From a virus, in IMG/VR virus record IMGVR_UViG_3300022539_000375, positions 1-30,167 of that record: DNA of 30,167 nt; one strand, given 5' to 3'. The position numbers were made by a program, and so were the translations under genes. The notes beneath the pieces were generated by a model. It made no database searches, was not told the origin of the DNA, and was given only the letters and a program-made list of their open reading frames with translations. Each line of letters begins with the position of its first letter. Positions within the stretch are counted from its first letter, which is position 1. Positions 2,669 through 13,203 of the stretch are shown here, one piece after another.

Positions 2669-2804
2669 TTACCTTTCTATCCTTATATTTCTCTCTATAA
2701 CAGTTTATTGTATTTTCACTATTGCAAGACCAGCACCGAGCATGTCTCTTGTTGCTGACAAACCAACAGCAGCAATCGTAGCAATAATGATGATAGAAAG
2801 TCAT
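2652..2804 (-). CDS. Small zinc-ribbon protein, 50 aa
   Basis: From ATG 2804 the product has closely set Cys pairs (YCYDCCCWF, then ARCWSCNSE and INC), which look like a zinc knuckle. The open frame extends upstream to 2882, but that part overlaps the HNH gene in another frame. The stop region overlaps the start of the methyltransferase. The HNH gene upstream appears to have read into this gene by insertion, since the last 30 or so residues of the HNH ORF are a frame shadow of this one. The start is uncertain. Confidence 0.5.
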   Translation of the reverse strand: MTFYHHYCYDCCCWFVSNKRHARCWSCNSENTINCYREKYKDRKVNGFTN

Positions 2805-3336
2805 TCTCACTTTCTTCAATCTTTCCCATATATATATTTTTAATTCTCTTTTGGAAAATCCGTACCCAAACTTCTCTATCATTATTCACTTCCGTGTTAC
2901 AAGAGCGACATAAACTAATCAAATTTTTGGGATTATTTTTCATTTTATCATAATCAATATGATGAATGGAAAGCCTCTCATTATTATTTCGTTCTTGTTT
3001 CTTACCACAGAGTTGACAAATATAATTATCACGTTTGCGAATACTTCCTCTTATTCGCTTATACTCAAGTGGATATGATTCAAAAGAAATTCCGCCACGC
3101 CAATTCGAATGATTTTCAAGATATTTCTTCACAGATTTACTTATTTTCTTTTTGGTTTCCTCCGATTTTGGTATCCCATACATATGACTCCGTTCACCTT
3201 TATGAGATTCACTTATCTTTCTATTATGCTCCTCAGAGTGAACTAAATTAGGATTCATCTCTTTCGTTATACCTCGTAGTGCTTTACCCAACTTTCTTTT
3301 ATGCTCTTCCGTTTTTTGGTAAACGCCTGTAAGCAT
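2719..3336 (-). CDS. Freestanding HNH homing endonuclease with NUMOD3 repeats
   Basis: The N-terminal half carries NUMOD3-type DNA-binding repeats (HSEEHNRKISESHKGE and KSEETKKKISKSVKK). The C-terminal half has an HNH nuclease: CQLCG, then SIHHIDYDKMKNNPKNLISLC and a second Cys pair. These enzymes cut intron- or intein-free alleles and spread their own gene. The start (ATG 3336) overlaps the stop of the clamp gene (TAATG). The last ~36 residues (from about MGKIEESEN, with LLLRLLLLV) do not look like part of the domain and overlap a zinc-ribbon gene in another frame, suggesting insertion of the endonuclease into an existing operon with loss of its own stop. Confidence 0.88.
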   Translation of the reverse strand: MLTGVYQKTEEHKRKLGKALRGITKEMNPNLVHSEEHNRKISESHKGERSHMYGIPKSEETKKKISKSVKKYLENHSNWRGGISFESYPLEYKRIRGSIRKRDNYICQLCGKKQERNNNERLSIHHIDYDKMKNNPKNLISLCRSCNTEVNNDREVWVRIFQKRIKNIYMGKIEESENDFLSSLLLRLLLLVCQQQETCSVLVLQ

Positions 3337-4352
3337 TATTCTATTACTCCCAGAACGGTTATATAGACAAATTTCTCACCCGTGACTTTCAGACGGCTGG
3401 ATGATACCTCACACTTATTATACTGCCTTACCAATTCCATCAGTAACTTTGCTGGTATAGTAAATTGCAATGGTTCGCCACTGTATTTTGATTTCTTGAT
3501 TTCAGTGAACCAGCCCGATGCTCCCTTGCCAGTGATTTTGAATTTAGTTGGTTTGAGGTCAACAATGATATTACTACCCTCAACATTCTCGGATGAAAAT
3601 ATTTCAGCCTTCTCGACAGCTTCCTTCAGACCTTTTGGCAGCACTAATGGTTTCCCTTCACTTCCCTTCAAAATCTTTGTTATGTCTTCAGTAGGATAAT
3701 CCTCCACAAAATGACGGCAACTGAGAGTCAATCCAGTAGAATTCCCAAAATGAATCCAATGTTTTGTCTCGCTGAATTTTGTCATATCCAGCGACACAAT
3801 ATGCTTCAATGACTCCTTTCTTATTAATACAGATTCGGATATATCAGTCTTTATTCTGAATCGGGTCACCTGATGATTATCACAAGCCTCCATCCACTTT
3901 GAGCAAATATGTATACAAGTCATAACAAATTGGGCTTCATTACTACCGGCACAAGGATGGACGATTGAAACAGCATCGGCAAAATTGGTAGGCAGGTCTT
4001 TCCATTTCTTTGGGGTTTCAACTGTTTCAATAGGAAGTAAAATGTCTTGTTCCATTCGGATACCCGACCGTCTATGTTTACCCTTAACAAGCAATTGAGT
4101 ATGTTTACTACTGACATCTATTTCCAATTCCTCCTCTTGCAATTTGCGAAGGATGGAAATAAGGGGCATAGCTTGCACTGCCCCTTCAATGTTCAACATA
4201 GATTTTTGTGAACAGGCTATTTCATCATTGTACGTGCGAATCGCTTTGTCCTTGAAAATGAAACAGGATGATTGTTCTATGATTTCCCTGGTTGATAGAC
4301 CTGGCAATACCGATTCCAATTGCTTTAGTAATTCTTCACGGTTGATTCTCAT
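3336..4352 (-). CDS. dnaN-like: DNA polymerase sliding clamp, DnaN-like
   Basis: A 338-residue protein whose layout fits a beta clamp (usually about 360-370 residues). The N-terminal domain is MRINREELLKQLESVLPGLS, followed by a short strand and a FIFKD segment. The middle has repeated strand-helix blocks. The C-terminal end, FTIPAKLLMELVRQYNKCEVSSS then EKFVYITVLGVIE, matches the last strand pattern of clamp proteins. Clamps encircle DNA and tether the polymerase. Strong Shine-Dalgarno AAAGGAG precedes the ATG. Neighbours (glycosylase-polymerase, helicase, primase) support replication. Sequence similarity is structural-pattern level, so a search would be needed to exclude another clamp class. 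Confidence 0.72.
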   Translation of the reverse strand: MRINREELLKQLESVLPGLSTREIIEQSSCFIFKDKAIRTYNDEIACSQKSMLNIEGAVQAMPLISILRKLQEEELEIDVSSKHTQLLVKGKHRRSGIRMEQDILLPIETVETPKKWKDLPTNFADAVSIVHPCAGSNEAQFVMTCIHICSKWMEACDNHQVTRFRIKTDISESVLIRKESLKHIVSLDMTKFSETKHWIHFGNSTGLTLSCRHFVEDYPTEDITKILKGSEGKPLVLPKGLKEAVEKAEIFSSENVEGSNIIVDLKPTKFKITGKGASGWFTEIKKSKYSGEPLQFTIPAKLLMELVRQYNKCEVSSSRLKVTGEKFVYITVLGVIE

Positions 4353-4370
4353 TTGTTTCTCCTTTTACTC

Positions 4371-5306
4371 TCAAAATAAAGTTGGTCTATTATCTACTTT
4401 TGGAAAATATTTTGGAGGATATGGCTCTGTAGAATAAAGAGGAATATGACAAGCCCAAGAATATATCCTTTTGAATTCCAAATTGTCTTGCACTTTTTTG
4501 TCTCTGTCCAACATTACAAATACCAATTGGTCTGCATCTCGTAAAATATTTATTCTTGTTAAAACAGTTTCTACACTATCAGTTATTCCTACATAAATAT
4601 ACCATCTTGTTTGCCATTTTTTCAATCCGTTCTTCTGCAATATTTCTAATGCTTTTAATACAGATTTTTTATAAGAAATATGGTCAAAAGCAAACCTAAT
4701 TTTTGCAGTTGATGGTTTTCTTGAACCACCCCAGTCTGCCCAATATTGTAAAGTAAATATTTCTTTACAAATTTTATTCGTCAAAAGTCGGTGGTCAAAT
4801 CCTGAGTTAAAGTCAACTCGAAGTTTTTCCTTTTTAATTTGTTTAGTTATTTTGAAAAATTGTTCAGGTAAACCAAGTATATTATTATCTAAAAGTGTGA
4901 TAATTTTTGCTTTCCCATCCCATATATCATAAATATCACCAGTAATTTGACATTGGCCTTCCTTTTGTTGTACAATACACCAAGAGCAATCTCGCACACA
5001 TCCCCTTGTAGTAAACCCAATATTTTTTCTTGGCTTAATTCTCTCTATTTTCAACGGTAATTTTTTTGTTATGTTATAGCCACTTCCACCAATCTCCGCG
5101 ATACCCTCCCATTTTCTACAAAAATGCTTATTATAATCAAATATACAAGAAACATAAATTTTATCATAATCATTTACAAACAATGGTAGAACTGATTTAT
5201 CTTTTATTTGAATAACTTTATCACCTCTTTTTTTGTAATAAAATTGGAGTTTTTGTAAAGCTATATTTGGAATTACACTATCAACGTCAACCAATAAAAT
5301 TCTCAT
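4371..5306 (-). CDS. Radical SAM protein
   Basis: From ATG 5306 the protein is 311 residues. It carries the radical SAM cluster motif RGCVRDCSWC (C103, C107, C110; CxxxCxxC), which binds a 4Fe-4S cluster and cleaves S-adenosylmethionine. The N-terminal ~60 residues (MRILLVDVDS, then a helix and YDKIYVSCIF) resemble the Rossmann-like or B12-binding-like N-domain often fused to radical SAM cores. A longer frame starts at TTG 5330, but that lies inside a hairpin, and ATG fits better. It sits between the clamp and a lysine-rich protein, in the replication arm. Substrate is unknown; phage radical SAM proteins of this kind are rarely characterised. Confidence 0.82.
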   Translation of the reverse strand: MRILLVDVDSVIPNIALQKLQFYYKKRGDKVIQIKDKSVLPLFVNDYDKIYVSCIFDYNKHFCRKWEGIAEIGGSGYNITKKLPLKIERIKPRKNIGFTTRGCVRDCSWCIVQQKEGQCQITGDIYDIWDGKAKIITLLDNNILGLPEQFFKITKQIKKEKLRVDFNSGFDHRLLTNKICKEIFTLQYWADWGGSRKPSTAKIRFAFDHISYKKSVLKALEILQKNGLKKWQTRWYIYVGITDSVETVLTRINILRDADQLVFVMLDRDKKVQDNLEFKRIYSWACHIPLYSTEPYPPKYFPKVDNRPTLF

Positions 5307-5369: not shown

Positions 5370-6017
5370 TCATTTCACAATGATATAGTATCCTTTATTG
5401 TCTTGCCCAATGTCAGTAATGCCTCTTGAATCTGCCAAACATTTCGGATAACGTGGGATACAACGTTCCATACTTTCTGAATTCTTATCAGGAAATCTTT
5501 TCTTCAGCAAAGATAAAATTTTCTTTGCTGAAATTGGTTGATGTATTTGTATAAATTCATACATTGACATCATAAGACCTGGTTTCTTTTCCTTCGTTGC
5601 GACTGCTTTCTTTGCTTTCTTCTTTGTGTCCTCTTTCTTAGCAGCTTCCTTCTCCTCTGTCTTTGTCTTACTCTTGTCTTTGGCTTTCTTCTCTGCTTTC
5701 CTTACAACTTCACGTTTTCTGGCAGCCTCGACATCCTTTTCCCGCCCCTTAGCAGCCTCAGCATCCTCAATGTCAACCACTGTAATCTTTTGTTCACGTT
5801 CCAATGCTCTCAAAATCACATCCACTTTCCTTTGCATTTTGGAAGTGAAATTAGCACCTTCAACAAGGTTGGGCAGATTTCTGATTTTCTTCTGCAACCG
5901 GATTACGTCCCACGTGCCAGCCGTTTTGAAACCCAACGCTTCAAATATCCTTATAGCCCGTGTCTTTGTTACTTCTCCTGTAAACTTTTTACCTTTTTTC
6001 TTTTTCTTCTTACTCAT
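5370..6017 (-). CDS. Lysine-rich hypothetical protein with folded ends
   Basis: The start at ATG 6017 has GGAAAGG seven bases upstream; an ATG at 6041 (eight codons longer) overlaps the stop of the upstream 50-aa gene and is an alternative. After a poly-lysine start (MSKKKKKKGKK) there is a domain with RIFEALGFKTAGTWDVIRLQKKI. A long highly charged middle (Ala, Lys, Glu, about residues 90-150) looks like an extended helix or disordered linker. The C-terminal ~65 residues (SMYEFIQIHQPISAKKILSLLKKRF) look like a winged-helix fold. This pattern suggests a nucleic acid-binding protein with two folded ends on a flexible arm. I do not recognise a family. Confidence 0.7.
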   Translation of the reverse strand: MSKKKKKKGKKFTGEVTKTRAIRIFEALGFKTAGTWDVIRLQKKIRNLPNLVEGANFTSKMQRKVDVILRALEREQKITVVDIEDAEAAKGREKDVEAARKREVVRKAEKKAKDKSKTKTEEKEAAKKEDTKKKAKKAVATKEKKPGLMMSMYEFIQIHQPISAKKILSLLKKRFPDKNSESMERCIPRYPKCLADSRGITDIGQDNKGYYIIVK

Positions 6018-6037
6018 CTTTTTTCCTTTCCAATGTT

Positions 6038-6190
6038 TCATTTGACCAATCTTTGATATTCTTCTTCAATTTCCCTTTTGAAGTTTTTCCAGCGGGTTTG
6101 TTCCGCTACAATAAGAATTTGTTTCAAATTCATTTCATTTGAAACCAAATCTTCAACGAATTCTTGTATTGTTCTAACATTTGATTTCAT
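6038..6190 (-). CDS. Small hypothetical protein, 50 aa
   Basis: The product begins MKSNVRTIQEFVEDLVSNE and continues with a charged helix-rich sequence. Its TGA overlaps the ATG at 6041 of the lysine-rich gene (ATGA). Codon pattern and the junction suggest a real gene; no family is recognised, and there is no strong Shine-Dalgarno site. Confidence 0.5.
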   Translation of the reverse strand: MKSNVRTIQEFVEDLVSNEMNLKQILIVAEQTRWKNFKREIEEEYQRLVK

Positions 6191-6247
6191 TATGTTTTCT
6201 CTCCAATCTTCCAAGCAATTTCGCTTTCTCCTTGACTTGACAGAATT

Positions 6248-7027: not shown

Positions 7028-7846
7028 TCATATATTTTGAAAATTGATAAGTTTTTCTTTTAATCGTTCTCTATTTTCCCTCCGTAATTCACATTCCCAA
7101 ACAATAAGTGTTCTAAAACCATATTTTGCAAAATGTCTTACTCTGCAATTTTCATGTTTCTTTATAGAAACACCCGTAACTTTTTTACTATGCCAGTAAT
7201 TACCAAACATTTCTATAACTTTCTTTTGACCGTTGATATTTATAAAGTCTGGATTTTTACATCCTATCCAAAATGTTCCATCCCCTACATACTTATATTC
7301 ATTTGGAAATAAATGATTCAATCTATTTCTTAATCTTCTCTCTGGTTTAGTTGGTCTTAAATCATATCCAGCAAAAATAGCTTTGAGTTGTTTCTCTCTG
7401 TATTCGGGATTTTGCCAAAGTTTTCTTCTGGATTTACCTATCTTTCTTTTTGCTTTCTCAGAGTGATGTTTTCCTGTCATACCTTTGTGATTTTCACGCC
7501 TTTTCCTTGCACCCTCCACTCCATAAAGTTCTTCCCAAGTCCCTTTATTCTTCCCCTCCATAGATTTGCCTATTTTCTTTTTAGTTTCCTCAGAGTGAGG
7601 TTTATGTTTTCTATTTTTATTAGCACAATCAATTGAACAATATTTTTTAGTAGAAGTCATTTTGACTTTGAATTCGTTATCACATTCTGGTCTTTCACAA
7701 ATCCTAACTTCTCTTAATGTTCTATTTTTACCTGTATGAGCAATACTCATTCTTTCTAATGTTTCTTTTGAAAGATTTTCCCGTTTATGAGATTCACTCA
7801 TTTTTGCTATTGTTTTTTCTGTCCTTATATAAACTCCCGTTGGCAT
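7028..7846 (-). CDS. Freestanding EDxHD (Vsr-like) homing endonuclease with NUMOD3 repeats
   Basis: ATG 7846 (MPTGVYIRTEKT) has AAAAAGGAT upstream and is preferred over a start 15 codons earlier. The N-terminal part has NUMOD3-type repeats (HSEETKKKIGKSMEGK, HSEKAKRKIGKSRRK) around a Cys motif (CERPEC, YCSIDC). The C-terminal part has PTKPERRLRNRLN, NPDFININGQKKVIEMFGN, HENCRVRHFAKYGFRTLIVWECEL: the E, D, H and E positions fit the restriction-like EDxHD nucleases. It has its own strong promoter and a leader hairpin, a known style of freestanding phage homing genes. It probably targets a nearby conserved gene. Confidence 0.85.
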   Translation of the reverse strand: MPTGVYIRTEKTIAKMSESHKRENLSKETLERMSIAHTGKNRTLREVRICERPECDNEFKVKMTSTKKYCSIDCANKNRKHKPHSEETKKKIGKSMEGKNKGTWEELYGVEGARKRRENHKGMTGKHHSEKAKRKIGKSRRKLWQNPEYREKQLKAIFAGYDLRPTKPERRLRNRLNHLFPNEYKYVGDGTFWIGCKNPDFININGQKKVIEMFGNYWHSKKVTGVSIKKHENCRVRHFAKYGFRTLIVWECELRRENRERLKEKLINFQNI

Positions 7847-7864
7847 TCCATATCCTTTTTCTAA

Positions 7865-7925
7865 TAAAAGTACCCAAAGCTTGAACAGCATAAACCACAG
7901 GGGAAATGCACTTTGGGTACTTTTA
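7865..7925 (-). repeat. Leader hairpin, 15-bp perfect arms, 31-nt loop
   Basis: TAAAAGTACCCAAAG at 7865-7879 is matched by its exact reverse complement at 7911-7925. It lies between the promoter at 7970-7997 and the ribosome-binding site of the homing endonuclease. In phage T4, freestanding homing genes are often controlled by leader hairpins near the start; a similar role is inferred here. Confidence 0.7.
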
Positions 7926-8503: not shown

Positions 8504-9910
8504 TTAAAAACAGCTTTTCACCGCAGGATTTGCCACTGCTAAACATCCGTAAACATAAACGCAGTCGATGGCAAAGAATTCGTCATCCCGTAACGATACC
8601 CAATTCAATCTCATTAATCCTTTCTTTTTTTCATCCGCTGTTTGATTTATCCCTATCATCCCGGTAACAGAATCAATCTTGCGTCTATCATCTGTAAAGT
8701 TATCCATCTTCATTGTCTCTCTATTGTAGGATGCAGTATCAGATTGGGTGGCCGTTAGCAATAGGCAATGTTGCCTTTGGGATAATGCTCGTAATTGCTT
8801 CCATGTCTTGTCTATTGTATCACGGCCTTCCAATCCTGGATATTCCATATTTAGAATATCAGCATAGTCAATCACTATTATATCTGGAATCCATTCTTCT
8901 TCCCTCTCCCAATCCTGTAGAATACTTTGGATTCCGTTAACACTGAGAGTTGAATTAAAATGACAGGAGAGTTTGAAGTATGATTCTTTACTCATTATTT
9001 TTTTTTGCATCACTCTCCTACAAGCCTTTCTTGCTCTTCTCCAACTCAATTTATTTTCAAATTCTTTCTCTTTCCAGTCTCGATATAGTTTTCTTATTCC
9101 CTTTTTGTTCCTCTTTCTTACAAGTTCTGTCGGATATTCTATTGTGCAAGGCCTGCGGGGATGTTTGGTAACACGAGTCATCAATCGTCTCATTGTTTGG
9201 TTTTGCCCCATATCGCCAATCTCGAACATCGCTACCTTTTTCCGTTGTACCATTCCTTGATAAGCCATTTCTTGCAACCAAAATGATTTACCCACTCCCT
9301 TTTTTCCCATAAAGGCAACGAAGCCTTCATGTTCCAATGAACCTCTGAAAAATTGTCCGAGTGCCCCTGGGAATTTAATTAGTGATTCTTTTTTATCTGC
9401 GAATGCCTCCCTAATAGCCTCCTCATTTTGTAGTATATCAATTCCCTCACCCACTCCCATCTCAACCTTGCTATATCCAATTAGGCGATTGTGAGCATCA
9501 CCTGCTTTGCCTTCACTAATATCAGATTCAACTGATTCAATTAACCTTTCAATCCTTACTTGATTAAAATAATAACCCGCAATATCAATTATATAATCAC
9601 TATTGCTCTCCTCTCCCAGTTCTTCATATTCCTCACTCAGTGAATCCAAAAACCTGCTTACCAAACTTATTGTACTCTTGTCTTCAGTTTTAGCAGACCA
9701 GTTTTCAAATAGACTTTCAATATGCTTCATTGGTGCCTTATCATATCTTTTGTAATAATTCAAACACCATTTAGCGATTATATTTGCCCATTTGGATTTG
9801 AACATTCGGTATCGCCATTTGGAAGCAATTCGGCCAAGCACAATTGGGTCAACAATCATCCCAATAAGTATTCGCCTTTCCTGGTCACTGTTTTTCTTGT
9901 CAATCCTCAT
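8504..9910 (-). CDS. dnaB-like: Replicative DNA helicase, DnaB-like
   Basis: 468 residues. The N-terminal ~180 residues are helical. The RecA-like core has Walker A GKKGVGKS (202-209), Walker B DIIVIDYAD (343-351) and a TATQSD motif (386-391) as in DnaB family helicases. The enzyme would unwind DNA ahead of the fork as a hexamer. A long basic insertion (about 260-310, RKLYRDWKEKEFENKLSWRR) separates motifs 1a and 2. The start overlaps the stop of the methyltransferase gene (ATGA), so the two are translationally coupled. The primase is about 6 kb upstream in the same direction. Confidence 0.9.
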   Translation of the reverse strand: MRIDKKNSDQERRILIGMIVDPIVLGRIASKWRYRMFKSKWANIIAKWCLNYYKRYDKAPMKHIESLFENWSAKTEDKSTISLVSRFLDSLSEEYEELGEESNSDYIIDIAGYYFNQVRIERLIESVESDISEGKAGDAHNRLIGYSKVEMGVGEGIDILQNEEAIREAFADKKESLIKFPGALGQFFRGSLEHEGFVAFMGKKGVGKSFWLQEMAYQGMVQRKKVAMFEIGDMGQNQTMRRLMTRVTKHPRRPCTIEYPTELVRKRNKKGIRKLYRDWKEKEFENKLSWRRARKACRRVMQKKIMSKESYFKLSCHFNSTLSVNGIQSILQDWEREEEWIPDIIVIDYADILNMEYPGLEGRDTIDKTWKQLRALSQRQHCLLLTATQSDTASYNRETMKMDNFTDDRRKIDSVTGMIGINQTADEKKKGLMRLNWVSLRDDEFFAIDCVYVYGCLAVANPAVKSCF

Positions 9911-12900
9911 ATCAATCCAAATGATTCTCTTTCCTTCTTTTTCTTCATTTTTTTCTTTGGCTTATCTTCAAATAAATTTGGCGTGACATTTTTCAATCTT
10001 GCTCTTGCAATTTCACAATATCCCTTATCTTTCTCAATCCCAATATAATTGATTCCAAACTCCTTACAGGCTACACAGGTTGTTCCTGAACCTACAAACG
10101 GGTCTAAAATAATTTGGCCTTTGTTTGGCATTTTCAAAAGCATACAAAGATATTGCATAAGTTGGAGTGGTTTTACTGTGGGATGAAAATTGCCTTTTAT
10201 TTTATTACGTTGTCGAATAGGAGATTCACATTTACAAGCTGATTTTCTATTAGGATTTTGAAAAATATATCCACCACAATTACCACATTTATCAAATCTA
10301 TTATGTCCTACTTCTTTTTCCATCTTTCCACACCCTGCGTTCCTTTCACCTCTGCTGGCTTTGGCTACGTAGAAAAAACGGGAGGCACCACCGGAACTTG
10401 ATGGATTAAAAACCTCTCGTTGATATTGTTTACTATAAGTGTTAAAATTACCACCTTTTGCTACTGACTGCATTTTTCCAGAAGATAATTCACCACTCTG
10501 TTTATCCAACATCTTTGCAGAGCAATTGGGATTATAAATTCCTCTCCCTGTTGGTTCAAAATATTTTAACCATTTTTTAGGTATGTCGCAAGCAAGGATT
10601 TCAAGTCTTCGTTCTCTTTGTGAAGTCTCATTAGTTTTTTTATTAGTTTGTGATGTTTTTGAGTGTGATTTATATTGTTTGTTATTTCCAAATTTATTAT
10701 TCTGTTGTCGTCTTTGATTCCGTTTTTGTGATGAACGATTTCGTTTCTCTTTAATGGTCTTCCTAATTTTATTGCCATTTTTAGACGATGTTCTATTATT
10801 ACACTCCTTTTGGTCATCTTCCGAGCCATTGCCAATTCTGTCGGATTTAACTCTTGGAGATTGATGTAACGATATCCCTTCCACACATATATGCCTTTGT
10901 AAATCGGATTGTCTTTGCCGTATTTTGCTCTTTTCCTCTGTGTTCTGCTCATTTTTCTTATTGATTTTGGAAGATGCTTTTTTCCGAACCTTGGATGAGT
11001 CTTGCCTCTTATGTTTTTGCTTAGCCATCCCCAATAACATTTCTTGCTGCAAAATCTGGTTCGATTTATTCTGCTTGGGTATGTCTGATACTCTTTTTGG
11101 CACATTTGGCAATTTGTAATCATAATAATACTCCTTAATTGCCTGTATTATACCAATCTCTGCTTTGTTAGTCAAATATAAAATAGGAATAAATTCCTCA
11201 TCCAATATCACATTGGCAGGCCAGCGACCTTGAGCTGTATCATCTCTAAAACCCATTCCTTTTTGATAAGTTTTATTTGTCTTAGCCATAAAACCTCGTA
11301 ATGGACTATTTAAACCTCCACCACCAAATCGCTCCCCTTGTTTCGATTCTATCCGTCCCCCATCTATGTTCAACCCTGCGACACCCCATTTCTCAGCATT
11401 CTTTGCAAAATTACCGTCAACAGGTTTCATACAAACCAAGATTGGTTCCCAAGAAGGCTTTAATCCCGTACCATATCCATCCCAGAGTTTGGCAAGTTTG
11501 GTCTGTGGTTTACCAATCGTTTTTGTTTGTACACCCTCTCCATAACATCCAGAAGGACTTGGCCCACTTTTTCTTGAATTCGGAGAAATAATACTTTTCC
11601 TAAATTTCTTCCAAACTCTCTCAAATTCTTTTTTCGTAGGTTTTCTACCAAGTTTTCTTATTAACCGTTTTCGACATTCTTGTTTGTCGAATTCCTTGCC
11701 TATATCTTTACTTTTGGGAAAGCCTGAATTGCCTGTAATAAATATCTTTCCGTTTCGGCGGGCTACAAAAGCTCCCGTAGAAACTCGGACGCACCAAACT
11801 TTTCCATTATATTCTATTGGGGTTATCGAAGCTTTTGTCCTTCGTATATTTTGTGAGCTTTGTTGGTTGGGAAAAGCATTAAGTTGTTTAGATTGTTGTT
11901 GGTTGGATTGTGGTCTATATGATGAACTGTTTCTCTTCTTACTAAACACCATTTTAGATGTCTGGCCATTATCAATCGATGTTCTATTATGTACCCATCT
12001 TTGCGAGCCATTGACAAATACTTTTTTGGGCATCGAATATATTTTATAGCAAATTTTCCATAGTTTCCCTTCTTCCTGAAATATGTTACACCACCTTTCC
12101 ATGCTGGATCGCCTGCTCCCATTCTTTTCAAACGATAATCTTCCTTGGTTTTTTCTGACCAACCATCTCTGCCTTTGCAACCATATTTTGCCCATTCTTT
12201 TCCACGAAGAACACCATTGCATTGTTTTGAACAGCAAGGATTTATTACTCGTTTTATGTGTTTTGTATTTCTGTAAAACTTTTTTCCACAAACAAAACAA
12301 ATTACTTTCGATTTTCCTTTGTGTCGTTTTGCGGGTCTGCTGCGGTCTATTCGTCTCAGATTTGTTATTTGGCATTCTTTTGAGCAAATCTTGTTTCTTG
12401 ATGCTTGTACGTGATTGCTTGTTATAAATGGTTTCAGGCAAATCTTGCAAACTTTCCAAAAAGGGTATATTCTTTTTGCATTTCCATGTTTCTGGCCTTT
12501 GAAATACCCAATCTCCGTTTTGTTCAACAATACAGCAATGTCCTTGGGAGACAATTTGGTCTGTAAAATCTGATTTAATTCTATAAGCGGTATATTTGTT
12601 TTCATAACAGAAACTCTCTTTAGGCTTATCAAATATAAATTCATCTTTTTCTATATTATAACATAATACAATATCATTGTCAATGGTTTTATGGTAATGT
12701 TTCCACCCTTCTATAGTTAATATTTCAGTATCTTCACTTAGACATCCATACAACCACATTAAACAATCACGAATCTGCCAACCAGCATCCTCGATTGCAC
12801 AAGTTAATCTATGAAAAGTACGAGTACCACCAAATACCAGCATAAATGCTCCGGGCTTGGCGATACGCAAACATTCTTTAGCCCATCGAGTAAACCATTG

Positions 12901-13203
12901 TTGGAATTCTGTATTTGCTTCTAACGAAAAATTATATTCACCTGCATACATTGAACGTCCTTGCCTTTTAGGATTCTTATGACCTCTGTTCTTAAACTGT
13001 TTGTTAATATAATCAGGTTTGAAGGTATCCCATTTTTTTGACATAAATCCTAATCCATATGGAGGGTCAGTTATGATTGAGTCAATACAACTATCAGGGA
13101 ATCTCTTTATAATTCTTCTACAATTACCATAAATTATTTCATTTATTGGCAATTCTTCTATATTGATTCTTTTATTTTTGGACTTTTTACTCCCTTTTTT
13201 CAT
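9907..13203 (-). CDS. DNA methyltransferase with an intein and a nested HNH insertion, 1098 codons
   Basis: Residues 1-153 carry motif IV TDPPYGLGF (DPPY at 46-49) and end WLYG. An intein follows, and then SGFPKSKDIGKEF. The C-terminal region has HPTVKPLQLMQYL and ILDPFVGSGTTCVACKEFG. The beta-type order suggests an N6-A or N4-C enzyme. After splicing the product would still be about 760 residues. It carries an extra ~190-residue Lys/Asn/Arg/Gln-rich stretch (about 694-880) that is the shadow of an HNH gene in the +1 frame, between conserved-looking WPANVILDEE and AKMLDKQSGE. The N-terminus lacks a good Shine-Dalgarno site. Coupled to the DnaB-like gene. The native core looks intact, but whether the bulky insertion is tolerated is unknown. 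Confidence 0.85.
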   Translation of the reverse strand: MKKGSKKSKNKRINIEELPINEIIYGNCRRIIKRFPDSCIDSIITDPPYGLGFMSKKWDTFKPDYINKQFKNRGHKNPKRQGRSMYAGEYNFSLEANTEFQQWFTRWAKECLRIAKPGAFMLVFGGTRTFHRLTCAIEDAGWQIRDCLMWLYGCLSEDTEILTIEGWKHYHKTIDNDIVLCYNIEKDEFIFDKPKESFCYENKYTAYRIKSDFTDQIVSQGHCCIVEQNGDWVFQRPETWKCKKNIPFLESLQDLPETIYNKQSRTSIKKQDLLKRMPNNKSETNRPQQTRKTTQRKIESNLFCLWKKVLQKYKTHKTSNKSLLFKTMQWCSSWKRMGKIWLQRQRWLVRKNQGRLSFEKNGSRRSSMERWCNIFQEEGKLWKICYKIYSMPKKVFVNGSQRWVHNRTSIDNGQTSKMVFSKKRNSSSYRPQSNQQQSKQLNAFPNQQSSQNIRRTKASITPIEYNGKVWCVRVSTGAFVARRNGKIFITGNSGFPKSKDIGKEFDKQECRKRLIRKLGRKPTKKEFERVWKKFRKSIISPNSRKSGPSPSGCYGEGVQTKTIGKPQTKLAKLWDGYGTGLKPSWEPILVCMKPVDGNFAKNAEKWGVAGLNIDGGRIESKQGERFGGGGLNSPLRGFMAKTNKTYQKGMGFRDDTAQGRWPANVILDEEFIPILYLTNKAEIGIIQAIKEYYYDYKLPNVPKRVSDIPKQNKSNQILQQEMLLGMAKQKHKRQDSSKVRKKASSKINKKNEQNTEEKSKIRQRQSDLQRHICVEGISLHQSPRVKSDRIGNGSEDDQKECNNRTSSKNGNKIRKTIKEKRNRSSQKRNQRRQQNNKFGNNKQYKSHSKTSQTNKKTNETSQRERRLEILACDIPKKWLKYFEPTGRGIYNPNCSAKMLDKQSGELSSGKMQSVAKGGNFNTYSKQYQREVFNPSSSGGASRFFYVAKASRGERNAGCGKMEKEVGHNRFDKCGNCGGYIFQNPNRKSACKCESPIRQRNKIKGNFHPTVKPLQLMQYLCMLLKMPNKGQIILDPFVGSGTTCVACKEFGINYIGIEKDKGYCEIARARLKNVTPNLFEDKPKKKMKKKKERESFGLI
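10566..11123 (-). CDS. HNH endonuclease nested in the +1 frame of the methyltransferase
   Basis: 185 residues from ATG 11123 with a very good Shine-Dalgarno site (AAGGAG, seven bases upstream). N-terminal Cys motif (CQMCQKEY, FCSKKCYWG), a basic linker, then SVIIEHRLKMAIKLGRPLKRNEIVHHKNGIKDDNRIINLEI, a typical HNH core of phage endonucleases. The host methyltransferase frame remains open throughout. There is no room for a group I intron around it and no intein blocks are visible, so it appears to be a plain gene insertion inside a coding sequence. It probably acts as a homing endonuclease. Confidence 0.88.
   Translation of the reverse strand: MITNCQMCQKEYQTYPSRINRTRFCSKKCYWGWLSKNIRGKTHPRFGKKHLPKSIRKMSRTQRKRAKYGKDNPIYKGIYVWKGYRYINLQELNPTELAMARKMTKRSVIIEHRLKMAIKLGRPLKRNEIVHHKNGIKDDNRIINLEITNNINHTQKHHKLIKKLMRLHKENEDLKSLLATYLKNG
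11728..12744 (-). mobile_element. Intein in the methyltransferase, 339 codons, endonuclease slot read in another frame
   Basis: Residues 154-492. It begins Cys (CLSEDTEILTIEGWKHYHK, block A). A block B-like segment is DQIVSQGHCCIVEQNG. It ends with KVWCVRVSTGAFVARRNG, then ITGN and Ser as the +1 residue (blocks F and G). Removing it joins WLYG to SGFPKSKDIG, a normal methyltransferase sequence. The middle (about 80 to 310 of the intein) reads as low-complexity Lys/Gln/Ser/Trp-rich text that does not look like any protein, because the real coding frame there is the HNH gene one base over. The exact splice residues are convincing; splicing activity is not shown. Confidence 0.88.
11823..12605 (-). 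CDS. HNH endonuclease nested in the +1 frame inside the intein
   Basis: The ORF ends (11823) exactly where the C-terminal intein blocks begin. Its start is less clear: ATG 12605, with AAGAGAG upstream, gives 260 residues, of which the first ~30 overlap intein block B and may not be native. It has Cys pairs (CKICLKPF, CSKEC; CFVCGKKF, CCSKQC) and then YIIEHRLIMARHLKWCLVRRETVHHIDHNPTNNNLNNLMLF, a full HNH core. So the nuclease sits where a homing domain normally is, but out of frame. Separate initiation, +1 frameshifting or a pair of compensating frameshifts could explain it. Confidence 0.82.
   Translation of the reverse strand: MKTNIPLIELNQILQTKLSPKDIAVLLNKTEIGYFKGQKHGNAKRIYPFWKVCKICLKPFITSNHVQASRNKICSKECQITNLRRIDRSRPAKRHKGKSKVICFVCGKKFYRNTKHIKRVINPCCSKQCNGVLRGKEWAKYGCKGRDGWSEKTKEDYRLKRMGAGDPAWKGGVTYFRKKGNYGKFAIKYIRCPKKYLSMARKDGYIIEHRLIMARHLKWCLVRRETVHHIDHNPTNNNLNNLMLFPTNKAHKIYEGQKLR

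Follow-up and report, generated by a model that had tools for sequence, protein, structure and literature searches.

How can an HNH endonuclease gene lie inside another gene, in another reading frame, and leave the frame of its host open from end to end? The question is raised by a 30167-base virus record classed by IMG/VR, called here the window, that is, the whole stretch of DNA that was analysed. The window is AT-rich (31-39% GC per kb) and carries terminase- and portal-like ORFs.

An HNH gene nested in a phage methyltransferase

On its minus strand, the window encodes a DNA methyltransferase (MTase) within which two HNH genes, called here HNH1 and HNH2, are nested:

9907-13203, minus strand: host ORF, phage N4/N6-type DNA methyltransferase of 1098 aa (PF01555, 98.9 bits; phrog_67, DNA methyltransferase)
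11728-12744, minus strand: intein in the same MTase (C154 to N492, then SGFPKS), at the same site as in L036 and L046-L049; boundaries read from the alignment, no HMM match
11823-12644, minus strand: HNH1, HNH gene nested in the intein, in the same +1 relation as HNH2, with the host frame open
10522-11193, minus strand: insertion of 672 nt, or 224 host codons (aa 671-894), seen against uninterrupted relatives; profile positions 237 and 234 on its two sides
10566-11123, minus strand: HNH2, nested HNH_3/NUMOD3 endonuclease gene of 185 aa with an ATG start, +1 relative to the host frame
10522-10565, minus strand: tail of the insert past the HNH2 stop, 44 nt read in the host frame, containing TTGAAC-17-TATAAT

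The MTase ORF reads through both the intein and the HNH2 insert. It contains the DPPY and DPFVGSGTT motifs, and MTase motifs are intact on either side of the HNH2 insert. The structure model of the MTase is poor overall (mean pLDDT 56.6), with core parts at 80-95, and the HNH2 insert is mostly of low confidence in it (pLDDT mostly 32-54, peak 72).

The first-pass annotation of this DNA had proposed a second HNH gene wholly within the MTase ORF, preceded by AAGGAG and with a full HNH core. The ORF is real, the AAGGAG stands 7 nt ahead of its ATG, and the encoded protein scores above the Pfam gathering cut-offs for both HNH_3 (26.9 bits, cut-off 24.8) and NUMOD3 (25.3 bits, cut-off 20.4). Residues H131, H132, N140 and N144 are invariant across 20 sequences, and the structure model of HNH2 has a mean pLDDT of 80.8, with residues 81-150 at 93-98. 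Its best Foldseek match in the PDB, a weak one, is I-HmuI (1u3e; probability 0.77, E 0.4), and a profile search of the PDB gave no useful match. I-HmuI is encoded by a group I intron, whereas none was found around HNH2. In Table 1 of PMC11855218, I-HmuI is also listed as a Foldseek match of the HNH protein of ShiLan. HNH2 is an ordinary endonuclease type in an unusual, recently described arrangement, and its gene is probably a selfish element. Two further NUMOD3-bearing putative homing endonucleases, both free-standing, are found in the window at 2719-3336 and 7028-7891.

Relatives of HNH2 were found at three loci in genome_contigs and, more distantly, at three in plasmids. A second copy of HNH2 at the same MTase site was not found in viral contigs, genome_contigs, phages or plasmids, this being the one open-frame copy seen there, and no useful match was obtained with P0001 or the middle MTase piece against viral_contigs, or with the insert DNA against phages.

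The edges of the insertion were defined by inspecting 39 of the 83 single-ORF relatives around the RWPAN motif, which is present in 38 of the 39 (L063 is without it). Several of these relatives have other, shorter natural linkers at the HNH2 site (L046, L062, L096 and L125, for example). The closest uninterrupted layouts are those of L058 (LLDETSAEMLDEQSG) and L085 (LILDEEAAEMLDQQSG), where the window reads VILDEE...CSAKMLDKQSG, which places the 224 inserted codons between DEE and SAKML, at 10522-11193, with edges uncertain by about one codon. The region had been read earlier as a polar insert tolerated by the MTase, and this reading agrees with the comparison: the insertion is missing from the relatives inspected, its 672 nt are a multiple of three, and a comparable 224-aa polar region occurs at this site in none of the 39. 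A polar region of this kind without an HNH frame, which had been named as counter-evidence, was likewise not seen among them. The insert consists of 70 nt before HNH2, the 558 nt of HNH2 including its stop, and 44 nt after it, so that the ORF fills 558 of the 672 nt and 114 nt lie outside it, leaving 23 host codons ahead of HNH2 and about 15 downstream. Read in the host frame, the insert peptide is rich in Lys, Asn, Gln, Ser and Arg, its K+R exceeding D+E by 31, and has no family match in Pfam, PHROGs or NCBIfam. A perfect 11-nt direct repeat lies near the two insert ends (10534-10544 and 11189-11199), out of codon register.

Avoidance of stops in the host frame

HNH2 begins at MTase offset 2080 and HNH1 at offset 559, both 1 modulo 3, so the +1 relation that had been claimed for the two genes is right. 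Over HNH2, the host frame contains 0 stops. The remaining sense frame contains 25, showing that stops are not rare in general. When HNH2 codons are drawn from window codon usage, the host frame should contain 20.8 +- 3.3 stops, and none of 5000 trials gave fewer than 10; when the codons of HNH2 are shuffled synonymously, the expectation is 10.9 and the lowest count in 5000 trials 4. The exact probability of 0 stops is 10^-12.9 under window usage and 10^-6.0 under HNH2's own codons. Log10P0 values such as -18216, met elsewhere in this analysis, are an artefact: some codon pairs force a stop (Met followed by a codon that begins with A is one example), and all that such a value says is that an open +1 shadow is impossible. 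The avoidance can be traced to the stop-generating context, a T-ending codon before AA, AG or GA: HNH2 has no T-ending codon at its 73 such positions and HNH1 none at its 90, compared with 557 at 1895 positions for 20 other genes of the window; before other codons, HNH2 uses T-ending codons at 33 of 112 positions. A stop-free alternative frame is present in none of the 35 viral-contig relatives of HNH2 (L001-L035), and in all five relatives of HNH1 from other phages.

These results demonstrate that chance is excluded by both nulls as the source of the open host frame over HNH2. The first-pass annotation had suggested selection to keep this frame open, and had offered a null model in which such shadows are common as what would speak against it. 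Neither null produced 0 stops in any of its 5000 trials; together with the closed frames of the 35 relatives, and with the open state of most HNH insertions in the MTase family (see below), this bears the suggestion out.

It had also been argued that HNH1 and HNH2 are two independent cases. The out-of-frame HNH gene with an open intein frame recurs at the intein site in L036, L046-L049, L055, L056, L170, L172 and L216, with own-usage odds of openness from 10^-4.4 to 10^-10.9. In a tree of 36 HNH rows, the eight intein-nested HNHs included, HNH1 among them, form one supported clade that leaves HNH2 outside; HNH2 itself takes no supported position in this tree, where long branches meet. The intein-nested HNHs share with HNH2 the +1 relation, the open host frame and an HNH_3-like core. 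They are unlike HNH2 in that the intein around them could be spliced out. A 2025 preprint may describe intein-nested HNHs.

Expression signals and the competing explanations

Sequences resembling expression signals precede both nested genes:

11147-11175, minus strand: TTGACT-17-TATAAT, resembling a promoter, with a TG ahead of the -10; lies within the host reading frame; sequence match only
11131-11136, minus strand: Shine-Dalgarno (SD) AAGGAG before the HNH2 ATG; sequence match
12655-12683, minus strand: TTGACA-17-TATAAT, likewise resembling a promoter and with a TG; lies upstream of HNH1 within the intein reading frame

The putative HNH2 promoter is a near-consensus extended -10 site that is also readable in the host frame. 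None of the 547 other same-strand ATGs of the window match the promoter and SD scores of HNH2 together. The match upstream of HNH1 coincides with conserved intein codons, so that constraint on the protein may account for part of it. The promoter-like site in the insert tail (10531-10559) points into the remaining methyltransferase. Similar pairs of promoter and SD sequences precede nested HNHs of L049 and L220 at the site of the published ShiLan domain (described below), and of L049 in its intein. Both scores are matched by just one other ATG for each of the two nested HNHs of L049 (among 174 and 176), which is in each case possibly that of the other nested gene, and by none of 135 for the ShiLan-site HNH of L220. 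The nested HNHs of L231, L175, L059, L221, L099 and L172 have a poor promoter and/or SD score, and those of L219 and L047 have a promoter match but an SD of 2/6.

Given the insertion, the two nested frames, the avoidance of stops, the expression-signal sequences and the repeated cases in related phages, we consider it likely that HNH2 is a homing-endonuclease gene that inserted into coding DNA without splicing, is expressed from signals of its own, and is read through as a hydrophilic loop. A selfish gene carrying its own promoter and ribosome-binding site would have inserted into a loop region of the MTase. It would be transcribed and translated from inside the host gene and would require no splicing, since ribosomes in the MTase frame would pass straight through, adding about 224 hydrophilic residues. 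Selection would hold the host frame stop-free, since with a stop the phage would lose its methyltransferase and the element the place in which it is tolerated. This reading supposes that HNH2 cuts the empty site and homes into it, that its signals work, and that the methyltransferase stays active.

Of the other explanations, the one that survives best, although it appears unlikely, is that the frame is kept open against polarity, ribosomes having to keep moving so that downstream genes of the operon are expressed, and not for MTase activity. The downstream gene at 8504-9910 indeed starts at the MTase stop, overlapping the MTase end by 4 nt. Its nearest relative seen (L045, 59% identical) lies in a 31.5-kb record without an MTase match, so that the MTase looks dispensable; that record may be a fragment, and an empty search result shows little. 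Against polarity, the MTase motifs have been preserved on both sides of the insert, and stops are tolerated in the MTase of L216 (see below).

An undetected splicing element in the insert, be it a divergent intein, a small intron or a translational bypass, is very improbable. The insert has a terminal Asn before Cys, as inteins can have, and the HMM searches that recognised no intein halves in it are weak evidence, because the real intein at 11728-12744 (queried as 11749-12747, slightly off) escapes the HMM libraries too. However, its first residue is Phe, not Cys or Ser, and the 23 and about 15 host residues flanking HNH2 are all that an intein would have besides the endonuclease; an intein was rejected on these grounds. 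A group I intron was rejected as well: between 10400 and 11350, Rfam gave no match to an intron or to a group I catalytic core even at E up to 1, and only the 114 nt outside the ORF would be available to it. Furthermore, an open frame is not needed by an intron or a bypass. The earlier statement that intein blocks and space for a group I intron are missing is supported by these results.

Finally, that the open shadow is a by-product of composition or of lysine-rich coding has practically no chance of being right for HNH2, where it is rejected by the two nulls and by the 35 relatives without an open frame. For some +1-type cases, shuffles often give an open frame (73-78% of them for L099).

HNH insertions across the methyltransferase family and the ShiLan domain

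The arrangement recurs in related methyltransferases. An agnostic survey of large insertions of any content, covering 117 locus-strands with MTase matches, yielded 39 large insertions, 37 open and 2 broken. By reading, 26 of the 37 open insertions, the two of the window included, hold an out-of-frame HNH (L220 4027-4380, which has no Pfam match, was counted as HNH by eye); L059, which comes from the HNH_3-profile count and not from this survey, brings them to 27. Of the remaining 11, some are inserts read in frame, ordinary inteins for example, and some natural variation. The HNH_3-profile count, made with that one profile on the loci fetched to that point and on the window, found 23 of 23 distinct insertions open. 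In both counts, repeats of the same sequence were dropped and L040-L042, which are the window itself, were left out. Some survey rows are close kin (L038, L051 and L052, for example) and are not independent. The insertions occupy the intein site, a site near profile 49-51 (L216), one about 12 residues past GFPK (L175, L221, L231), the ShiLan site at EP-VA-KP (L038, L049, L051, L052, L059, L172, L219, L220), the site of the window, SRFF (L216, L220) and NKGCE (L099). Wherever the MTase is read as the +1 shadow of a nested HNH, the own-usage odds of openness are 10^-0.1 to 10^-1.7, which is weak case by case.

That insertions are always open is ruled out by the survey, as both broken insertions lie in L216 (L216:1539-6234), where a single methyltransferase gene carries HNH insertions at five different sites, of which three are transparent and two break the frame; openness is therefore not obligatory. 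The insertion at 5510-6193 has 3 stops. The other, at 4036-4620, has 27 stops and lies at profile 234/238, in the same loop as the window insert (237/234). This loop was thus invaded without transparency, and the place does not compel the openness seen in the window. At this site L216 has a different type of HNH (HNH_2/HNH, below cut-off), which matches HNH2 over only 28 residues. The reading frame of the L049 MTase shifts past the two HNHs nested in it, perhaps because this host is broken elsewhere or because the sequence contains an error. In every one of 13 pairs of nested relatives, conservation is higher in the HNH frame than in the host frame, so it is the HNH that is the conserved protein. 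The host-frame peptide is also more identical than under synonymous resampling in 13 of 13 pairs; this null ignores shared ancestry, and nothing was drawn from it as to selection on the peptide.

The arrangement is not new in kind. An HNH read out of frame inside mycobacteriophage methylases was published in 2025 as the "ShiLan domain" (PMC11855218), the insertion having been found earlier, in a 2023 paper (PMC9957025), and a cluster A1 methylase with an out-of-frame HNH is reported in PMC12613952. The HNH2 insert fits the ShiLan-domain type: relatives without the insertion exist, its length is a multiple of three, the host is open, and an HNH ORF fills most of it. The methylase family is the same (L038, L051 and L052 align with the window MTase), the HNH proteins are related at about 30% identity, and in both the HNH is in another frame while the host frame is without stops and no intein or intron is detectable. 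The window insert nevertheless lies at RWPANVILDE|SAKML and not at EP-VA-KP (profile 237/234 as compared to about 142-169 for the ShiLan-site cases), and in another frame relation. At the ShiLan site in L038, L049, L051, L052 and L172, the flanking profile matches overlap by 12-21 positions, corresponding to a methyltransferase stretch repeated at the start of the insert, a repeat also mentioned in PMC11855218; at the window site the overlap is only about 3. HNH2 starts with an ATG 70 nt into the insert, preceded by promoter and SD sequences, whereas PMC11855218 gives the ShiLan gene a GTG start 18 bp in and no detectable ribosome-binding site. Its authors asked how such hidden HNHs get translated, a question for which the window supplies promoter and SD sequences inside the host frame. 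Their cases are GC-rich. In the AT-rich window, openness is statistically demonstrable, with odds of 10^-6 to 10^-13, as compared to weak own-usage odds in two actinophage cases (10^-1.0 for L038, 10^-0.4 for L052). Pacc40 gp60, set beside HNH2 by its description in PMC11855218, likewise has an out-of-frame HNH-like ORF in a phage methylase with an open host frame; this methylase could not be aligned well with ShiLan's by those authors. What is new here is another site, an AT-rich phage in which chance openness is excluded, and built-in expression-signal sequences; an earlier report of any of these was not found in the literature searched, which took in few subscription papers and no bioRxiv preprints.

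It is an evenly balanced question whether these cases belong to a general class of homing elements, "transparent" ones distinct from introns and inteins, in which an endonuclease gene sits in coding DNA, brings its own promoter and ribosome-binding site, and has codons selected for host read-through. One phage methyltransferase family, with at least six sites, would be the main landing ground of this class. The odds and the signal sequences of the window make expression, homing and host tolerance directly testable, and the locus offers a natural case of one DNA stretch constraining two proteins.

An HNH gene also overlaps, in another frame, the ORF of a different methyltransferase in the Omega-type mycobacteriophages Constella (L050:2144-2761) and Hannaconda (L053). 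This methyltransferase is cytosine-C5-like, and in Constella both overlapping genes are annotated.
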